Below are positions 10,553 through 61,093 of a stretch of DNA of 64,000 bases, one piece after another. Positions within the stretch are counted from its first letter, which is position 1. The number at the start of each line of letters is the position of its first letter. Below the pieces are notes generated by a model, which had not been told where the DNA came from, made no database searches, and saw only the letters and a list, made by a program, of their open reading frames with translations. The position numbers were made by a program, and so were the translations under genes. The DNA is from Artemia franciscana (lineage: Eukaryota > Arthropoda > Branchiopoda > Anostraca > Artemiidae), in assembly GCF_032884065.1 (NCBI RefSeq), contig NW_027063627.1, forward strand, positions 482,001 through 546,000. Direction: 5' to 3'.

Positions 10553-10696
10553 TGTCTGTCTGTGTGTCTGTCTGTGGCTCAGGTGACGTCATGTTTCTGT
10601 GTTGACTGACGTCATGAAATTAGTTGTCGTCATTTTTGCTTTGACGGTGACGTCATTCAAGATATTTAAGACATATGTTCACGTAGAAATCTATTC

Positions 10697-13372
10697 ATGT
10701 TTAAGTTTACAATGACTGATGAACTTACCATGGCAAAAGCCGATGAAGATGCTCAAAGAGTCTATGCCAAAAAACTTGCTGCTGATAGAGAAAGTCAGAA
10801 AAGAAAGCGTGCCGAGGAACTACCAGAGCAACGCGAAAGCAGACTTGCTGCTAAAAGAGAAAGTGAAAAAAGAAGGCGTGCCGAGGAATCAAAAGAACAG
10901 CAAGGAAACAGGCTTGAGGCTGATAGAGAAAGAAAGAACAGAAAGCGTGCCGAGGAATCAAAAGAACAGCAAGGAAACAGGCTTGAGGCTGATAGAGAAA
11001 GAAAGAACAGAAAGCGTGCCGAGGAACTACCAGAGCAACGCGGAAGCAGACTTGCTGCTAAAAGAGAAAGTGAAAAAAGAAGGCGTGCCGAGGAATTACA
11101 AGAACAGCAAGAAATCAGGCTTACTGCTGATAGAGAAAGTAAGAAAAGAAAGCGTGCCGAGGAATCACAAGAACAGCAAGAAATCAGGCTTGCTGCTGAT
11201 AGAGAAAGTAAGAAAAGAAAGCGTGCCGAGGAATCAGAGCAACCTGAAAGTTATCGCCTGGCATTCAGGTACAACCCAGTCGATGATTATAGCTTGAGTA
11301 GATGTGTTCAAATCGGGACAATGTCTAAAATTTGTCCCTATTGCAAGGCCTTGAAATTCAATGGTGAAACAATGGGAATGTGTTGCGCCTCAGGAAAAGT
11401 TAAACTTCCTCTATTGGCTGCACCACCAGAGCCAATGAAGACTTTCCTTACTGGAACTACGCCAGAATCTAAGCGTTTTTTGTCAAAAATCAGAAAATAC
11501 AACTCATGTTTCCAAATGACGTCGTTTGGAGCCCAAATCGAAAATCCAGATCAATTTATGTCTACTTTCAAAGTAAAAGGGCAAATTTATCATAGAGCAG
11601 GGTCCCTTCTACCATTCTCAGGCGAGAATCATAAATTTTTACAATTGTACTTCATCAGTGATAGAAATTCTGAATTGAATGCACGTTGCAAAATTTCTCC
11701 CAACGTTGAAAGGACAATCGTTTCCCAATTGCAACATCTTTTCCACGAAAATAATAATTTAGTGCGTCTGTTCAAAACAGCCATCGATTTGATGCCTACT
11801 GATACGCATAAAATTGTTATTTCCGCTGACAAAACGCCTCCTGGCCAAGATGTGCGTAGATACAATGCTCCAACTATCGACGAAGTGGCAATCGTTATGG
11901 TCGGTGATCAGTTTTTACCTCGAGATATTATTCTTCATAAGCGAAACGCTCAGTTGTTAAGAATTGCTGAAACTCATCGATGCTACGATGCCCTACAATA
12001 TCCTATAATTTTTTGGGATGGAGCCGACGGCTATCACTTTAATATTAAATTGATGAATCCAGCCACTAACAAAGAAATGAATAAGAAATGCAGTGCAATG
12101 CATTATTATTCCTATAGACTAATGATTCGGCAGGATGAAGAAAATTATATTTTAAAATGCCGTGAATTGTTTCACCAATTCGTCGTTGATATGTATGCTA
12201 AAATTGAATCAGAACGTTTGCTATATATCCGCCTGAATCAGACCAAGCTCCGCTCTGAACAATACATTCATTTGCGAGATGCAGTTATAAATGACGGTAA
12301 TACCACAAACGTTGGAGGATTAACAATTTTACCTTCGTCATATGCTGGCAGTCCCCGTCATATGCATGAATATGCTCAAGATGCTATTGCGTATGTTCGT
12401 CTCTATGGTCGTCCAGATTTATTTATTACATTTACATGTAATCAATCTTGGGACGAGATACTGCAGCTTTTACTTCAAGGACAATCGGCGGTTCATAGGC
12501 ATGACATTACGGCCCGTGTCTTCCGGCAAAAGTTGAAATCACTGATAAACTACATTGTTAAACTTGAAGTGTTTGGGTCAGTGCGATGCTGGATGTACTC
12601 AGTGGAATGGCAAAAACGAGGTTTGCCACACGCACATATACTAATCTGGCTACATAAAAAAATTACTTCGAACGAAATTGATGATGTGATTTCCGCTGAA
12701 ATACCTGATAAAAATGTCGATAAGGGGTTACATGATATTATTGTAAAAAATATGATACATGGACCTTGCGGTGCACTGAACGAAAATTCACCATGCATGG
12801 CCAAAGGAAGGTGCACAAAGCAATATCCTCGACTTTTAGTATCAAACACAATTACTGGCAATGATGGTTACCCACAATATAGAAGAAGATCTACTGAAGA
12901 CGGTGGTAAAACAGCAATAATAAAGAAGCGTAACGGTACCACCATCGAAGTAGATAACCAGTGGGTTGTTCCATATTCCCCATTATTATCAAAAACATTT
13001 AATGCACACATAAACGTTGAATACTGTAACTCCGTAAAGGCAATCAAATACATATGTAAATACGTCAACAAAGGCAGTGACATGGCAGTTTTTGGCTTGC
13101 AGCCCGAAATCAAAGATTTCGACGAAATCGTACAATATCAGGCTGGAAGATACATAAGCAGTAATGAAGCTGTTTGGCGAATTCTTTCATTTCCGATACA
13201 TGAACGTAGTCCAGCTGTTGTTCACTTAGCGGTACATTTACAGAATGGTCAACGTGTTTATTTCACGGAAACCAACGTGCAACAAAGAGTCCTGAATCCA
13301 CCGGATACAACATTAACAGCTTTTTTTCGCTTTGCAAAAATGATTCTTTTGCAAAAAACTGCTGTATACTGA
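10697..13372 (+). CDS. Helitron Rep (HUH nuclease) part of RepHel
   Basis: The 891-codon ORF begins MFKFTMTDEL. Residues ~30-180 are about seven copies of a 23-residue charged unit (for example DRESKKRKRAEESQEQQEIR), likely a coiled coil. A cysteine cluster follows (CPYCKALKFNGETMGMCC). The central domain is the Helitron-like N region (YAQDAIAYVRLYGRPDLFIT). The rolling-circle nuclease has the HUH motif LPHAHILIW with H645 and H647, and the two-tyrosine motif KYICKY with Y785 and Y789; both tyrosines are present. The enzyme nicks and joins single strands during rolling-circle transposition. The frame ends early at 13,372: the continuation LLYTEVPSYYTWNTKNK lies in the next frame, so an indel at the A6 run (13,353-13,358) splits one ancestral RepHel protein. 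The internal repeat also opens a second frame (10,719-11,297), which is a shadow. Confidence 0.9.
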   Translation: MFKFTMTDELTMAKADEDAQRVYAKKLAADRESQKRKRAEELPEQRESRLAAKRESEKRRRAEESKEQQGNRLEADRERKNRKRAEESKEQQGNRLEADRERKNRKRAEELPEQRGSRLAAKRESEKRRRAEELQEQQEIRLTADRESKKRKRAEESQEQQEIRLAADRESKKRKRAEESEQPESYRLAFRYNPVDDYSLSRCVQIGTMSKICPYCKALKFNGETMGMCCASGKVKLPLLAAPPEPMKTFLTGTTPESKRFLSKIRKYNSCFQMTSFGAQIENPDQFMSTFKVKGQIYHRAGSLLPFSGENHKFLQLYFISDRNSELNARCKISPNVERTIVSQLQHLFHENNNLVRLFKTAIDLMPTDTHKIVISADKTPPGQDVRRYNAPTIDEVAIVMVGDQFLPRDIILHKRNAQLLRIAETHRCYDALQYPIIFWDGADGYHFNIKLMNPATNKEMNKKCSAMHYYSYRLMIRQDEENYILKCRELFHQFVVDMYAKIESERLLYIRLNQTKLRSEQYIHLRDAVINDGNTTNVGGLTILPSSYAGSPRHMHEYAQDAIAYVRLYGRPDLFITFTCNQSWDEILQLLLQGQSAVHRHDITARVFRQKLKSLINYIVKLEVFGSVRCWMYSVEWQKRGLPHAHILIWLHKKITSNEIDDVISAEIPDKNVDKGLHDIIVKNMIHGPCGALNENSPCMAKGRCTKQYPRLLVSNTITGNDGYPQYRRRSTEDGGKTAIIKKRNGTTIEVDNQWVVPYSPLLSKTFNAHINVEYCNSVKAIKYICKYVNKGSDMAVFGLQPEIKDFDEIVQYQAGRYISSNEAVWRILSFPIHERSPAVVHLAVHLQNGQRVYFTETNVQQRVLNPPDTTLTAFFRFAKMILLQKTAVY
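10785..11240 (+). repeat. 69-bp coding minisatellite in Rep N-terminus
   Basis: About seven in-frame copies of a 69-bp unit containing GAAAGCGTGCCGAGGAA. Two adjacent copies (about 10,893-11,030) are almost identical, which suggests recent unequal exchange. The length is a multiple of three, so the reading frame is kept. Confidence 0.85.
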
Positions 13373-13373
13373 A

Positions 13374-15407
13374 GTGCCTTCGTATTACACGTGGAATACT
13401 AAAAATAAAGTATTTGAACGTCGAAAACAGGGTAAGTCAGTCGACGGCCAACCTACCATCTTCAAAGATACCACGATAGGAAGACTCTACACCGTTCACC
13501 CCAATCAACATGAATGCTTCTTTCTACGCCTGCTTTTGGTGAATGTACCCGGTCCGACATCCTTTGAGTATTTGAGAACTGTAAACGGTACTATACATGA
13601 CACTTACCGTAGTGCATGCCAAGCTCTGAATTTATTGGAGAATGACCAACACTGGGATAACTGCATCAATGACGCGTGCGAAACGTCAACCCCAAGTCAA
13701 ATTCGTGCATTGTTTGGCATCATTTTAACAACTTGCTCTCCATCAGCTCCTACAGAGTTATGGGAAAAATATAAGTCAAAAATGTCCGAAGATATACTCC
13801 ATCGAAAACAGTTAGAGACGTCAGATATGACTTTTGATTTTACATCAGAAATTTATAACTACACTTTAGTTATTATAGAAGATTTGTGCGTACGTATGGC
13901 AAACAAACCTCTTCAGGATTTGGGAATGCCTTCACCTAACCGTATCGCTGCTGTTTCGACATGTGTAGAATTGGATCGTGAACAAAGTTACAGTACGAGT
14001 GATCTATTGTCGTATGTACAAAATAACATTTCCAAGTTAACGTCGGAACAAAAAGACATTTATGATACGATAATGCATTGTTTCGATAACAACGTTGGAG
14101 AAATTTTCTTTTTGGATGCGCCAGGAGGTACTGGTAAAATATTTGTGATAAAACTGATTCTGGCATCAATTCGATCAAAAAATGATATAGCGTTGGCAAT
14201 TGCATCGTCCGGAATAGCCGCAACATTGCTGCCTGGTGGAAGAACTGCTCATTCCGCTTTGAAATTGCCTCTGAATTTGCATTCTACAGAAACTCCCACG
14301 TGCAATATTTCCAAATCATCTGGGATGGGTAAAGTATTGCAGCAATGCAAACTTATTATTTGGGATGAGTGCACAATGGCACACAAAAAATCGCTCGAGG
14401 CTCTGGATCAATGCTTGAAAGATTTGAGAGGGAAGTCGAAACCCTTTGGCAGCACATTAATATTGCTTGCGGGAGATTTCAGGCAAACATTACCTATAAT
14501 ACCTAGATCAACTCCTGCAGACGAAATGAATGCTTGCCTGAAAAATTCTAATTTATGGGCACACGTAAAAATATTAAAATTAACTACAAATATGCGTGTC
14601 CGATTGCAAAACGATGACTCTGGTCAAACATTTTCAGATCAATTGCTGGCAATTGGAAACGGAAAGCTCCCAGTAGACTCAATTTCAGGACGTATACAAC
14701 TACCTGCTGATTTCTGTAATTTAGTGACGTCCAAAAATGAATTGATTGAAAAAGTATTTCCGAATATTCTAAAAAATTATAAAAATAATAAATGGCTAAG
14801 TGAAAGAGCGATTCTCGCACCCAAAAATATAGACGTCCACGAAATCAACAATATTGTTTTGACCAAGATTCGAGACCAGGCAGTCCTTTACAAGTCAGTC
14901 GACACAGTTTTGGAACCAAATGAAGCGGTTAATTATCCATCTGAATTTTTAAATTCCATAGATCTTTCAGGGTTTCCACCACACGTGCTACAACTAAAAA
15001 TAGGCGTACCAATAATACTTTTAAGAAATATAAACCCACCAAAGCTTTGCAATGGCACTCGACTTGCCGTAAAAAAAACAATGGAAAACCTAATAGAGGC
15101 CACAATCTTGACAGGGCCTTTTGAGGGTGAGGCTGTTCTTATTCCTCGCATTCCCATGATTACAACGGATCTGCCTTTTCAATTTAAAAGATTGCAATTC
15201 CCAATTCGATTAGCATTTGCAATCACCATTAACAAAGCTCAAGGTCAATCATTAGAAAAATGTGGTATAGATCTTAATACTGATTGTTTTTCCCATGGAC
15301 AATTGTACGTTGCATGTTCGAGGGTCGGTAAACCTTACAATCTATTTATATGCAGCGACAATTGGACAGCGAAGAATGTTGTATATTCGCAAGTTTTACG
15401 CAGTTAA
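13374..15407 (+). pseudogene. Helitron Pif1-like helicase part, Walker A threonine lost
   Basis: This part reads PSYYTWNTKNKVFERRK and continues 677 residues to TAA. The listed first codon is GTG inside a longer open frame, so this is not an independent start; it continues Rep after a frameshift. Superfamily 1B helicase motifs are visible: Walker A DAPGGTGKIF (residues ~249-257), motif Ia region SSGIAATLLPGGRTAHS, Walker B LIIWDECTM, GDFRQTLPIIP (motif III), and the C-terminal AFAITINKAQGQSL and YVACSRVGK (motifs V/VI). The Walker A normally ends GKT or GKS; here codon 14,139-14,141 is ATA (Ile), one C-to-T step from ACA (Thr). Loss of that residue should abolish Mg-ATP use. The domain would unwind DNA during transposition if intact. 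Confidence 0.88.
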
Positions 15408-28740: not shown

Positions 28741-30334
28741 TTAAATTAATTTTTATCCATTAAAAGTTAATAATCTGAGAAAATATGCCTGATTTGGAAA
28801 AAGTGGGTAAACCCACTTTTTAAGTGGTTTAAACCCCCCGTAACCCCCCCTCCCTCCTAGAATTTAACGAATCTCAATGGAAATCCCACCAATAGCTTCA
28901 GCGTACCCGATAACCCTACTCTAGAGGCTCCAGCTCCTATATATAAAAATGTGGTACTTCGGCGTTTTTGGCCAGAAGGAAGATCACGAATGTGTGTTTA
29001 TTTAATTTTTTTTCCAAGGGTGATAGTATCGAAATAGTGGTCCTAAAAGATTGAGAGAGGGTGGATTCAAACAGAAATTAACAGTTCTAGTGGCCTTTCT
29101 AGGTGACAAAATAGATTGGAGGGCAACTAGGCCTCTCCCACGCCCCTTTTCCCCCAAATGTCGTTCCTATCAAATTTTGAGACAGTCATTTTGTTCAGCA
29201 TAGTTAAAATATTCAATAACTATGCCTTTAGGGGTAACATACCCCCCCTCTCACAATTTGTGGGGAGAGGCCTGTAAGTTATGAAATTTGGCCATTGTTT
29301 ATGTATAATATGTGTTATTAGGAAGTACACAGAAATTTTCTTGGGAGGATTTTGCGCTTGGGGCTGGTTTCCATGGAGAGAATTTCCCGCGGGGGAGGGG
29401 AGAATTTCTGGCGTTGAAATTTTCAGGGATATTTTACACTGGGGGGATTTGACAGAATTCCTATATGAAATTATTTTTATTCGTCTTACTTTCTCTTTGC
29501 CAACTCAATTTTGCATGTGGAGATGTTCCGAAGGAATGCTCGGGGGCTATTTTCATCGTGTTCGGATTTCCAGGAAAAATTCCAAGGAAGGGGGATTTCC
29601 AGAGTGATCGGGAAAACACTTACAAAATAATATTCTTTTTCAAATGAAAGCATGATAAGGAGGATTTTCAGGCTGAATCATTCGCAAGAAACTTTACGGG
29701 GGAGGTTATTTTCAGCAAGGATGGAATGGGTCGCAAGGAATTTTATAGGGGGGGGGGTGTATTTTACATGGGAACGAACTTCCACGGAGGAATCTCCTGT
29801 GAGTAGAGGAAATTTTTCATGGAGGATGAGGCAGATTTACTGGAATTATTTGAAAAACCATTAGAAATTAAGTAAAAAAAAGAAGTTTTTTTTCAACTGA
29901 AAGTAAGAAACAACATTAAAACTAAAAAAAGAAATTATTCATGGATTGGCTCTCTCCTCAAACCCTGCTCCTTACTCTAAATTTTGACTGCTTGTTTTAT
30001 TAGAACAGTTTCTGAAATACAAGGACCTTTTCATTAGAATAGGTTCTTGATTAGTCTATCTAAGAGATAAAATGAAAAAATGAGTATTTTAACTGAAAGT
30101 AATGAGCAACATTAAAACTCAAAACGATTAGAAATTATTCCGTATATGAAAGGGTTGGCACTCCCTTCAATACCTTGCTCTTTACCATAAAATTTTAAAC
30201 ATTAAAAAAAAGCTTCCGATTCTACTGAAAAGGCCCTTGTGTTTCAGAAGCTGTTCTTAAAAAACAATATAGGACAAACAGTCAAACTTTAGCGTAAAGA
30301 GCAAGGTATAGAGGAGAGGACAAATCCCTTCATA
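28741..30334. repeat. Copies of an abundant interspersed repeat family, left part
   Basis: Landmarks: GAGAAAATATGCC, TCCAAGGGTGATAGTATCGA, GGTGACAAAATAGATTGGAG, TTTTGAGACAGTCATTTTGTTCAGC and GTAAGTTATGAAATTTGGCC. Related copies occur at 32,510, 36,181, 38,600, 40,905, 47,330 and 58,000-60,400. The unit at 29,879-30,300 (AACTGAAAGTAA-GA-CAACATTAAAAC) occurs again at 36,290. The family provides empty-site references for two insertions in this window. Confidence 0.6.
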
Positions 30335-30836: not shown

Positions 30837-32752
30837 TATGGAATAATTTCTGCTTGTTCTGACTTTTAATGTTGCTCCTTACTTTCAGTTGAAAAAACTC
30901 GTTTTTTTTTATTTACTCTCGTACATAGTCACTTTCACTTTCATCACTAATTTCACTTTCATAACTAATCACTTTCATGTGCTTATCTGGTATACCTTAC
31001 AAGGACAGTTTGGAATAGAATTCCCTAGGTCGGAATTTTTTTGTATTCTGGGGGACTGAGAACCAACCGCTCAATATTAATATTTCAATTTATAAGGATT
31101 AGGATGAATCATACGCTTTACGATGAAAACACTCACAGAGCATTTATATTTAATATACTTTCTGTTGCTGACGCTTTTGCGAATCTTTTGATTAAAATAT
31201 CATGAAAAAATCTTTTTTTTCCGGAAGTACATAATGCATTTTGATATTTACTTCATAGCTGAAGATTGCGTCAGAAAATCCTTAAATTCATTTTCGGCAA
31301 AAATAAAATTTTTGTGCAAATTTGATGAGTTTTCGTTCTGTTGCCTAGCAAATAAGCGTTTTAGTTTTCATCCCTGGACATTGCAACTCAAGCAATATGG
31401 GGTAATGTTCGGCAAATGTGTCAAATTTTATTATTCTCGGGCCTTTCATTTCAAAACCTACTTTGAAAAAAATCATCTTTGCGGAGATGACTGTGGTAAT
31501 TAAGGGACTGTTTATATTATTTTACTGCCTTAACAGCCCAAAGCATCGGTGTATTGATTGAACCTTAACAATCGCTATTAAATAGGAATCAAACATTGTA
31601 GACTAATTGCTCTGTCTGTGGGATAAAGGAAAATAAGATAAAAAGAAGAAAAAAAACAATGGCTTAATTCTTCAGATGAAAAGTTGATTCAAAACTACTG
31701 GTAACCCTATCAGGGAGGATCGACGGAGATGGGAAACGGGTAAAAATCCCAAAGGCCTGAACTTCAAAGTGTCCTTAGGCAGAAGTCTATGTTGGAAGTT
31801 TAAATATTTTTGATGAATTTACCATCAAAATACTCTATTTCATAATTTTGTATAACTCTTTTTTCAACTGAATAAAAAGTTCGAAATTAAACGATCTACT
31901 GTAAAGAAGTTTTAGAAATTTGCAGCTGTAGTACAAAACCCAAAAATCTAATTACAGGAGAGGTCAGCAGACTTGATTGTGCCCTTCGTTGGTTTCCATG
32001 CACAGAACAACCCGATTCGACCTTCCAAGTGCATCTACATCAGTGTTTTATAGCAAAAAAAGCAACAAAAAAACACAAAAAAAAACAACAAAAAACGAGG
32101 TAGCGGCGTCATTCAAAATTGAGCAAAATCTATTTTCAGTATCTAGAGAGGGGACAAATGTGTCATTTTTCAATAAAAATACTTCCACAAAGGTATACAA
32201 AAACAGGGGTCACAGACTCTACCCCCAATTGACGCCAATGTGAAGAGGGGGAGGAGAGACGACGGAACCACGAGAGCCAGTCTTAGCTCTCAAATCAAAA
32301 ACTAAAGACAATTTTCTTCAGCATTAAATAAATTGTTTTACCAACTATAAAGAAATTGATGTATATGTCTGTTTTGTCTAAAAGACTTCGAAGGCCAAAT
32401 AGTAACTCAAATTATAAACAACAAAATTTGTACAACAATAGATATACCCAAGGAATTGGCTTTTATACTAATTCGAAATACATAAAATTAATTGTTTAAT
32501 GGTACTCATCAAAAGCCAAGAGCCTGAGAAAATTTCCCTCATTTTTGAAAAAGGGGAAACACCCCCAAAAGTCAAGCAATCTTAATGAGAATCACACCGC
32601 AGATTCAGCCTATCAAAAACCCCTACTATAGAAGTTTCAAGCTCCTATCTACAAAATGTGGTAATTTGATTTTTTTTTTTTTTTGTAAGAAGAAAGATCA
32701 CGGATGTGTATTTATTTTTTTCCAGGGGTGATCGTTTCGAATCAATGGTCTT
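30837..32752. other. No gene seen; interspersed repeat flanks
   Basis: 30,837-30,905 continues the host repeat of the Helitron insertion. 30,975-31,045 repeats the block at 28,555-28,620. 31,050-32,500 holds no recognised feature. 32,510-32,752 is another copy of the abundant interspersed repeat, ending in the Academ-like insertion site. Confidence 0.4.
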
Positions 32753-32816
32753 TAGACAAGGCGCCAGCATTAAAAAAGATGCTTAGTTGTCAAAACACCC
32801 GACCCAAAAGGTACAA
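32753..32816 (+). repeat. Left terminal inverted repeat of the Academ-like element
   Basis: Two conserved blocks, TAGACAAGGCGCCAG and CCCAAAAGGTACAATAGG, separated by a diverged stretch. They pair with 36,116-36,170. Confidence 0.75.
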
Positions 32817-33061
32817 TAGGTCTAATTACACCATCTTATAGATAATACAACGGCGATTAAGAATATGCTTGGAACGCTGGTCTGCGACTGGTGCTTCATG
32901 GCAAAAAACTACTTTTTTAACATCCTTTTTTACTTTCTTGTGGCTCCTCGTCGGAGTTGGATTTTTAGTCAACAATTGCTCGCTAGGCTGTGCGCAACAG
33001 CGACAATCGTACTGAAAATTCCAGAGAAGAAGTATGAGATACAATAAATAGAAGACATAGA

Positions 33062-35397
33062 TAAATAGAAGACATAGCAGGAATAATAGCTTCTGCAAGT
33101 GCTTCGAACCCGAATTCGAAGCTTTGGTTACAGTACATTCGAATGGTCTTGATTATGCTCCAATTTCTTTTGGCTGACCGCTGTGGGAACTTTGACTTGC
33201 ATTTGAAAGCAATCAGTATGATGCTTCCCTTTATGGCCACCATAAGTACGTAACCTATCTCACAGTGTATTTGCAAGACATGAGCATATACCTGAACAAC
33301 TTCGCAAGCAGTTTTTGCAAGGCCACTTTATTGTGAAAAGATCTGTTGGTTCAGCTAACGCAGTTTCTCCAGACCATGCCTTGGAGTCTGAACCTTGAGG
33401 CAAAACAAAAAGGCGGCATCAAAGGGCTAACTCTGAATACCAGTGCGGTCGCCAAGTGGATATCTACCTTGCCATTTTGTGCAAATGTATCAGCCTAACT
33501 GTGTAAAATAGCTGGAATAAACGGAAACAGCGATTACGATGGATCCGAGAAGGCAGATTTTCAAAACGAGAAATTTGTGTTGAAGACTATGTCAATAGTT
33601 GAAAGTTACGTGAATCTCTTCGATTGTCAAGAAAAAGAACTTGTGAACATCATGACTAGTGAGGTTGCTGAAAATTCAATCCGAGATAGTCTTTTGGCTT
33701 CTGAAGAAAACGGTGTAAGAGCCATTGAAGCATTTGTCGCTGGGAAACCCAACCCCTTTTCAAAAATTAAGGTAGTGACTAAGGCTAGTAGCTTGATGAA
33801 GTGTAAAGAGAAGAAGAAGAAAGCATTCAGCTGCATCCAAGATGAACTAGAAGTGACTAGGAAGATATTACTTGCTTGTGGTAGCGCTCCCACCAGGTCT
33901 TTGTCAGTATTGCGTAGATTGATGCCCCATGAACTCCTTTCGGTATCACCAGCTCTGTTTGAAAGAACATGCACTGGTGCTGGCATTTGGTTACGAACGG
34001 ATTCCAAAGCTGCACTTATAGATTCAATACGAATGCTTAGTGTAATTGATTCTTGGCCTATGAACGTCACTCTAAGACCTGAGGCAAAGCAGGCACTAGA
34101 CTTTATAGCATTCATTAGAACCCAAATTTCGTCAAAAAACAAAACCTTGGAGAATTTTGCATGTAGAATGTTGCGAAACATAACGAAAGAACTGACAGAT
34201 TTTACTGAACTGCATGTCATATCAGACAGATACGATGGACTGCATTTGATAAAGGACCCAGAGGGTTGTCCTATTCTCCTAAAAAAAACAGCAGCGGCTG
34301 TCATAGTAGAAGGGGAGAGGGCACTATCAGAACATTCGTAATCTCTCGATCTGTGACCTTGGAAAACTAGGAGCTTATGCTGACGCAGTCATAGACGAAG
34401 GCGAAAATTGCTGATGTTATATTTGAAATTTGGAAAGATCAGACAGAGAACACGCCCTTTCCGCTGGTGCTTGCTGGAGGGTTTAGTGACAGACGTGAAG
34501 TCTCTGTAAAAGGTCTACCATTTGATGTTTGCTCTGAACTTACTGAGAGCCTAGCGAGCACCCATGAGGAAGCTGATACGAGGCTGGTACTACATGTGAC
34601 TCATTGTTTTCGCAGGGATTATCAGCAGGTGATAGTGAAAGTCAACGACACAGATATCTTGGCCATGCTTATTCAGCATTTCGAGATTATGACTTCTAAG
34701 TGTACTGCATCCGATTCTGAGCTGTACCTCAAGCTTAGAGATAAAACATTCCCGATCCACCAAGTAGTGAAAAAGATCCCGGTCCCTGTAACAAACACTA
34801 TTACCTTTCTTCACTGTTTTACCGGCTGTGATACTGTGAGCTTCTTCTATTCAAAAGGCAAAAAGACCTTCTTTACTGCGGCTCTAAAGCTGGTGTCCTG
34901 GACGAACTGGAAAAGTTAACAGCGAAGGTGATTAGTGCCCCCTAGTTTTTAACAGAGTTTCTGGATTACCTAGCAAACATTTTAGAAAAATTGTCATTGT
35001 TGCCTACGGCAAGCAATATGAAAAGTTTTCCAGTTTAGATGATCTGCGAGTTCACTTATTTCACAAGAAAAGCAGTCTGAAGTGCCTTCCACCAAAAGAA
35101 AACACTTTCAAATACCATGTAAAAAGAGCTGCCTTTCAGTTGTCTTTGATGCTGCAAGCCTCAGAAGCTCGACCATATATTCACAACCCATTGCATTTCG
35201 GGTGGGCATATAGCCATGCAGATGGGGTCGTTCCAATAACTACAACGCTTCTGCAGTGGCCTTCGACAGTCAAAGGTGTGCCCAAATCATTTTCTTGCAG
35301 AAATGGATGTGCTAAACGTTTCCCTTGTTCTTTTGATGGGAAGTGTGATATACTTTGCTCATGTGGTGGCAGCTGCTCAATAGATTCGGATGAAGAA
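33062..35397 (+). pseudogene. Decayed transposon ORF with XPG/FEN-like acidic signature
   Basis: Pieces in shifting frames line up, in order, with a large metazoan ORF family that I remember as repeated in Hydra, insect and crustacean genomes. First comes SKLWLQYIRMV with FLLADRCGNFDLHLKAI (33,110-33,230). Then KYVTYLTVYLQDM, and EQLRKQFLQGHFIVKRS (33,290s). A 254-codon frame (33,577-34,341) ends with VISDRYDGL. A 150-codon frame (34,467-34,919) has THEEADTRLVLH, NDTDILAML and TGCDTVSFF. The last frame (open from about 34,990 to 35,397) has YGKQYEKFSSLDDL, AYSHADGVVPI and a Cys-rich tail CRNGCAKRFPC...CSCGGSC. D-x-Y, EEAD, DTD and GCD in this order resemble the metal-binding acids of XPG/FEN PIN-like nucleases. 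At least four frame breaks and several stops show it is dead; the N-terminus is missing. Confidence 0.78.
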
Positions 35398-36115
35398 TAA
35401 AGAAAGGGGAGTTTTCATGCATTTCTTTCCTGCTTTACCATTTCCTATCTTTTTCTCTTATGTTTAAATGGAAATCGTGACTTGTCTGAAATTTAATATA
35501 CATTAATAAACAAATCGCTAAGATAATCGACGCTTGTTCAGCCTGCCATCTTTAATGTGACTAATCCGAGTATGATGTAGCTTCACATAAAGTTTTCAGT
35601 TGGATAGTAGCCTACTTTTACCAAAATTCTTCGACCCCCTTTATGAAACTTCTTCTGAATCCTTCTATCTTTTAATAAGCTTTTTTGAGATGCTTGTTGA
35701 GAACTTTCTTGATTTCTAATCGAACGTTTGTCTTTAAGGACGTTAATGCTGCAAGCCACAAAATTACAGTCATTTATTCAAGCATTATTTGTGAATTGTA
35801 ATTGCTAGAATAGTTTTTGATTTTGTATATTTAAGCAATATATTGGATATGTATCTGTCCTTAACCAGTAAACGTGTCCGATTTGAAGTCTTTTTTTTGG
35901 AGGGGGGAGGTGAATCGTTTCGTTGTGAGCATGTTCGATTTCGGCTACATTTAATTTTTCAAACTACTGAAAATGATAACGACACTTGTTAATGAAGGGA
36001 AAGTATTCAATTGTATTAGGCATCAATTCTACCTCAAGCACCCAATTCCGATCGCTGTTCCTGGCATATTCGTAATTAGCGGGTTCGATTTGATGGGAAA
36101 TCCACTTTCAACCTG

Positions 36116-36170
36116 TTGTACCTTTTGGGTGAGGGGGGTGTAACATTTTCCGGACCTGGCGCCTGGACTA
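36116..36170 (-). repeat. Right terminal inverted repeat of the Academ-like element
   Basis: Ends CTGGCGCCTGGACTA immediately before the CTT duplication. Mirrors the left TIR including the TTGTACCTTTTGGGT block. Confidence 0.75.
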
Positions 36171-36173
36171 CTT

Positions 36174-39518: not shown

Positions 39519-61093
<21,575 letters not shown>

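Follow-up and report, generated by a model that had tools for sequence, protein, structure and literature searches.

The window analysed here is a stretch of 64,000 nucleotides from Artemia franciscana (assembly GCF_032884065.1, contig NW_027063627.1, positions 482,001 to 546,000 of the forward strand), in which positions 32753-36170 are occupied by a transposon insertion of 3,418 bp. A preliminary description, made from the letters alone, had read this locus as a complete Academ-like transposon with terminal inverted repeats (TIRs), a 3-bp duplication and a single open reading frame (ORF) as cargo. The insertion itself is confirmed: read directly from the sequence, it has CTT on each side, its ends are inverted, and one empty site is available for comparison; the limits given earlier, 32750 and 36173, count the duplications in. 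It is not complete, since the main transposase part is missing. The features of the locus are collected in Table 1.

Table 1. Features of the insertion and of the host repeat around it, in window coordinates.
Feature	Positions	Strand	Basis and remarks
Paralogous host-repeat copy, uninterrupted	28870..29116	+	Empty-site control; joined-flank alignment
Left target-site duplication CTT	32750..32752	.	Direct reading; equals 36171-36173
Left imperfect TIR	32753..32821	+	Outer 15 bp 32753-32767, TAGACAAGGCGCCAG; inner block 32802-32821; first base common to other copies
Derivative's 5' terminal region (~first 315 bp)	32753..33067	+	Not found in transposase-carrying copies; putative deletion junction ~33068
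Decayed coding sequence	33092..33498	+	Transposase-region end (33092-33271) and stretch preceding XPG-like region; tblastn of relative's protein
Open stretch 1, 280 aa	33499..34341	+	N-side of XPG-like region, motif ISDRYDG
Open stretch 2, 174 aa	34395..34919	+	XPG/FEN-like acidic motifs HEEAD 34563-34577, NDTD 34644-34655, GCDT 34824-34835
Open stretch 3, 154 aa	34936..35400	+	C-terminal part
Cys-rich tail CRNGCAKRFPCSFDGKCDILCSCGGSC	35296..35376	+	By inspection; aligns to relative's Cys-rich tail
Right imperfect TIR	36111..36170	-	Inner block 36111-36130; outer 36156-36170, reverse of TAGTCCAGGCGCCAG
Right target-site duplication CTT	36171..36173	.	Direct reading; equals 32750..32752

Borders, empty site and copies in the genome

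The outer ends pair at 13 of 15 positions and the inner inverted blocks are identical at 19 of 20, both as found by repeat search; aligned in inverted orientation over 100 bp, the left and right ends score 49, and of 4,986 random pairs taken in inverted orientation from the window, 4 reach that score. Once the element and one CTT are taken out, the remaining flanks align through the junction with the uninterrupted host-repeat copy (255 columns, 70% identity, E 1e-24). A second empty site had been claimed near 47,400; the host-repeat match there (47367-47406) ends 1 base past the junction and is thus no proof of an empty site, so that one of the two claimed controls stands. A search of the window against Rfam at gathering scores found nothing.

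The family was traced in the 1.27-Gb assembly of 6,468 contigs, in which all counts of end matches are lower bounds. A left-end query of 301 bases, which opens with CTT so that its numbering is shifted by 3, gives at least 24 match rows at at least 21 places; of the 23 rows besides the window, 13 begin no more than two bases from where the element starts, 2 begin at base 5 and 5 at about base 22, and the remaining 3 belong, as second pieces, to copies already counted. The right-end query gives at least 32 matches. Both ends were looked for in nine copies, of which one (C16:22306026) has no mapped left end; exact 3-bp duplications flank five of the eight two-ended ones: CTT in the window, GTA in C19, AAT in C7, TAA in C18a and ACT in C3. 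The outer TIR, short and imperfect when taken alone, would suit inverted ends that lie by chance around a host pseudogene, with no mobile element involved; we judge this already refuted by the recurrence of both ends, by the agreement of the 13 left-end rows on where the element begins, by the other sites with duplications of their own, and by the empty site.

Some copies are arranged in other ways. Four right-end pieces lie head-to-tail with a period of ~1.77 kb (L033-L036, C21:8653127-8661715), the terminal ~33 bp missing; this is a portion of the element captured in a tandem array. Three loci (L026, L029 and L030, on C18, C15 and C19) share nearly identical 14 bases past the right end, and were therefore probably copied within a larger repeat rather than inserted separately. 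At L002/L011 (C3:5239283-5244886), a left half and a right end stand in opposite orientations between flanks AAG and AAG, which is either an inversion or a nested second copy.

A coding remnant and its full-length relatives

What had been taken for one ORF is in fact a remnant, spread over three open stretches in two frames and preceded by decayed coding sequence. The window stretches gave no significant match in a Pfam search. Introns were considered as the cause of the frame switches and rejected: by eye there is no GT-AG stretch of fitting length, and the intron reading is also disfavoured by transposase-carrying copies, which are without the two switches (~33,387; 34,881-34,894).

A protein search of the genome returns, among the 150 scored of 959 candidates, relatives ~30-35% identical, some of which have long open frames. 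The relative on C3 (L077/L069, C3:12130309-12135033) measures 4,725 bp and is bounded by the ends TAGTCAGGGAGCCAC, with AAT duplicated on either side; one interruption splits its frame into open stretches of 423 and 713 residues. A copy on C13 (L070/L076), whose left end was not located, is 98% identical to it over 4,155 bp, and its frame is open over 1,137 residues. This single frame contains an N-terminal transposase part, an XPG/FEN-like region and a Cys-rich tail. The relative family is recent and abundant, with 631 first-look candidates, of which 40 were scored, at 97-100% identity over the 3' end; some of its copies have long open frames and would suit a first biochemical test of the putative nuclease part. 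In the C13 relative, residues 57-382 weakly match positions 74-402 (of 410) of the Pfam profile DUF6589 (PF20231) with E 1.1e-5 and 24.7 bits; this transposase part lies at L070:4351-6001 (minus). The C3 relative matches with E 0.0015. Among the papers covered by a text search, none has the term DUF6589 and one has the term AcademX. The two relatives are a lead, not proof, that this domain of unknown function may be an Academ transposase domain.

By tblastn, the window copy matches the 423-residue first part of the C3 relative only from residue 355. The other left-end loci are similar: of eight in all, the first match to the relative falls at residue 343-345 in five, at 355 in the window, and at 359 and 378 in the others. 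The element is thus best read as a 5' end joined to the 3' part of a larger gene. As most of the transposase region, the domain looked for in an Academ element, is missing, we class this copy among non-autonomous derivatives and not as an autonomous member.

The transposase part does occur in the window's own subfamily. A pair of copies on C16 (L071/L046 and L072/L045, C16:11969400 and 12001000) carries it (residues 29-422 in one, 33-394 in the other), and on C7 there is a fragment that starts at residue 285; the first blocks of the derivative to match them are q316-349, then q356 onward. The C16 copies are segmental duplicates separated by ~31 kb, with 97.6% identity across 5,376 bp and an identical right flank; they are the only transposase-carrying copy of the window subfamily that was found. 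A DNA search with their transposase part returns, besides the pair itself, two pieces of 197 bases and two of 55.

The motifs H-x-E-A-D, N-D-T-D and G-C-D-T are invariant in five aligned sequences, and their order and rough spacing resemble those of FEN/XPG nucleases, as judged by comparison with GEN1/XPG chains. These motifs point to a putative XPG/FEN-like nuclease region, in which the conserved acidic residues may have catalytic roles; no profile match to it is significant. A search of the PDB with open stretch 2 found no match, and the profile of alignment A2 gave a single one (1ml8, E 0.0024, a protein labelled hypothetical), which was judged to be chance, and none to XPG. A fold of open stretch 2 predicted with no alignment reached a pLDDT of 31 and was discarded. 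Scans of a viral collection with open stretch 2 and with alignment A2 confirmed no relatives, nor did a scan of prokaryote genomes with the GEN1/XPG profile. The host genome has a GEN1-like resolvase of its own, an exon of which lies at L089 (C13:26589528-26590298); its best PDB match is 5t9j (Flap endonuclease GEN homolog 1), with E 1.4e-48.

Decay of the frame and a probable source of mobility

Counts of indels, stops, frame switches and codon positions leave aside copy C18b, which aligns poorly (71%). Among the 11 derivatives, differences per codon position are nearly flat (0.058/0.060/0.070), and they are nearly flat against three other copies of the subfamily as well (0.089/0.083/0.095), so that those copies have decayed too. 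Against the older L054 they are 0.220/0.215/0.487; this roughly twofold third-position excess, seen against older subfamilies, indicates that the ancestors were constrained. All 11 derivatives, but none of the three other copies, have a stop at 34943, which 6 of the 11 frame-aware alignments read in frame. By the same kind of alignment, a frame switch near 33,387 occurs in 10/10 derivatives covering the site (0/2 others), and another near 34,881-34,894 in 10/11 (0/3 others), both positions being approximate as the aligned protein is only ~30% identical. Compared with the majority, the window copy has four indels: two private, one common to 1 and one to 4 of 13 copies. The common stop and the near-even divergence indicate that the ORF broke before the family spread; judging from these alignments, the founder most likely carried a defective ORF by then. 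The preliminary description had proposed a search of other copies for inverted ends, 3-bp duplications and an intact ORF: facing ends and duplications (5/8) are there, whereas the ORF is broken, with a stop that all 11 derivatives share. For a family that spread from a founder with a defective ORF, a source acting in trans is the simplest explanation.

Elements that could have served as this source coexist with the derivative in the genome: they have nearly identical ends and contain the transposase part. The 15-bp end TAGTCAGGGCGCCAG, allowing at most one mismatch, occurs 360 times, against 5 for a reversed control. Among the 100 places listed of these 360, 23 pairs of neighbours within 8 kb face each other and 3 are in another orientation; such ends thus occur in inverted pairs, as the preliminary description expected. 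The spacing is 4.7-5.1 kb in 14 of the 23. Ten, picked among those near 4.9 kb, were tested for duplications, and nine have exact 3-bp ones. A transposase query of 119 residues, taken upstream of the derivative's junction, was compared by eye with the ends over the best 150 of 583 candidates: at least 15 of the 23 facing pairs enclose a match, including all ten tested for duplications, and no copy of the window derivative family is among these candidates. This query replaced an earlier one overlapping the part that the derivative retains, with which 18/23 pairs had matched, four of them only in the overlap. One facing pair (L106/L107, C13:16022413 and 16027379) has the flanks CTTA and TAAG, inverted instead of duplicated.

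Our preferred explanation, at a probability of about 0.88, is that a cut-and-paste transposon of the Academ (AcademX) type inserted here in a non-autonomous, deleted form, which its relatives moved in trans. An ancestor of ~5 kb would have coded for one protein that combined a transposase domain with an XPG/FEN-like nuclease region and a Cys-rich tail. Most of the transposase domain would then have been lost through an internal deletion that brought the ancestor's first ~315 bp next to the 3' portion of the gene. The derivative, which retained both ends, would have inserted at some dozen sites or more, producing 3-bp duplications, its ORF presumably broken from the founder on, and the proteins of relatives with almost identical ends may have moved it.

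Several results weigh against this explanation. Three of the eight two-ended copies (C76, C233, C18b) are without a matching duplication, as is one of the ten tested facing pairs; eight of the 23 facing pairs have no transposase match among the matches listed, the five shortest (1.9-4.3 kb) being among these eight. In the genome, no full-length copy was found whose left end is exactly that of the window element, and no left end was detected in the C16 pair or the C7 fragment within the stretch fetched. The DUF6589 match, at 24.7 bits, is below the Pfam curated cut-off of 27; a piece of a third family (L084) has no match to this profile, and a genome-wide search with it gave none; as control genomes gave none either, that search speaks neither for nor against. 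Neither the window stretches nor the relative have a Pfam match to XPG, and hhalign gives a comparison with GEN1/XPG a probability of 0.3%, though the G-C-D region aligned as expected; as this profile comparison is not significant, the nuclease assignment stays provisional.

A rival reading is a self-sufficient element, whose XPG/FEN-like protein would be the sole cutting enzyme and to which a transposase domain never belonged. Older copies (L053, L054, L055; ~72% DNA identity) do have the same left-end region close to the XPG-like part, and nothing in the interval matches the transposase; also, the concentration of differences at third codon positions in older subfamilies argues for an ORF that was once constrained. 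However, the distance from left end to ORF and the joining point vary among the older copies, a pattern suggestive of independent deletions; the family spread even though its founder's ORF was by then broken; and the transposase part is present in the ~4.9-kb elements, whose ends are near-identical. We consider a self-sufficient element highly improbable. Very unlikely, too, is that transposase-less XPG/FEN-like elements form a lasting lineage, in which the nuclease-plus-Cys-tail protein, constrained in the older subfamilies, did part of the transposition; if true, the transposase would be shared with, or borrowed from, same-ended relatives, making this a split-enzyme Academ system. Under the preferred reading, a deleted derivative moved in trans, the window element represents a non-autonomous family that is new but of a known kind: a fragmentary 'uncharacterised protein' is now tied to transposon borders, and alone it is one more non-autonomous DNA transposon.

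Relation to Academ lineages and other features of the window

The AcademX lineage of the Academ superfamily reportedly goes back to Kapitonov and Jurka (2010) and Kojima (2020). A Cys-rich zinc-finger region is a feature of Academ proteins, to which the Cys-rich tail of the window copy and of the relative may correspond. The order of parts and the motifs in the relatives' protein agree with the general description of Academ. Weak profile support for both the XPG and the transposase assignments leaves some room for another superfamily of DNA transposons with TIRs and 3-bp duplications, miscalled Academ; this is unlikely, given that agreement and the combination of 3-bp duplications with a nuclease-like and a separate transposase region, which fits AcademX as described in PMC10045372.

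According to that source, duplications are of 3 or 4 bp in AcademX and of 9 or 10 bp in AcademH, and are tied to the encoded nuclease or helicase. The window family resembles AcademX in its 3-bp duplications, its TIRs and a putative nuclease-coding region with XPG/FEN-like motifs, to which the relatives add the transposase region; it differs in that the window copy is without most of that region and without an intact frame. AcademH, of the same superfamily, differs by its 9-10 bp duplications (PMC10045372) from the 3 bp found here, and a scan of 1,018 of the 1,137 residues of the relative gave no Pfam match to a helicase. The curated bivalve Academ elements (PMC10294476) are likewise DNA transposons with TIRs, and their mean length of 5,565 bp is near that of the 4.7-5 kb relatives here; they are autonomous, DDE-containing consensuses, in contrast to the window copy of 3.4 kb, which is without that part. 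DUF6589 matches the transposase part of the relative, which the window copy does not have. Judged from the published description, the relatives would fit AcademX, and the window copy a non-autonomous derivative of that type. The earlier reading of the element as Academ-like, with TIRs and a 3-bp duplication, is supported by five of the eight two-ended copies, nine of the ten facing pairs and the AAT-flanked relative; its statement that no transposon context is recognised for the ORF family does not hold, as AcademX with a nuclease and 3-4 bp duplications is already published (PMC10045372).

Three other features lie elsewhere in the window. An acidic open frame on the minus strand (44594-45247) has no Pfam match at E 0.01 and may resemble a UTP14-type nucleolar protein. 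A Helitron at 10670-15404 has two frames that overlap, with the domains Helitron_like_N and PIF1 helicase. An open frame of 525 residues at 52706-54280 (minus) codes for a reverse transcriptase (RVT_1, E 5.6e-33), which we take to be LINE-like.

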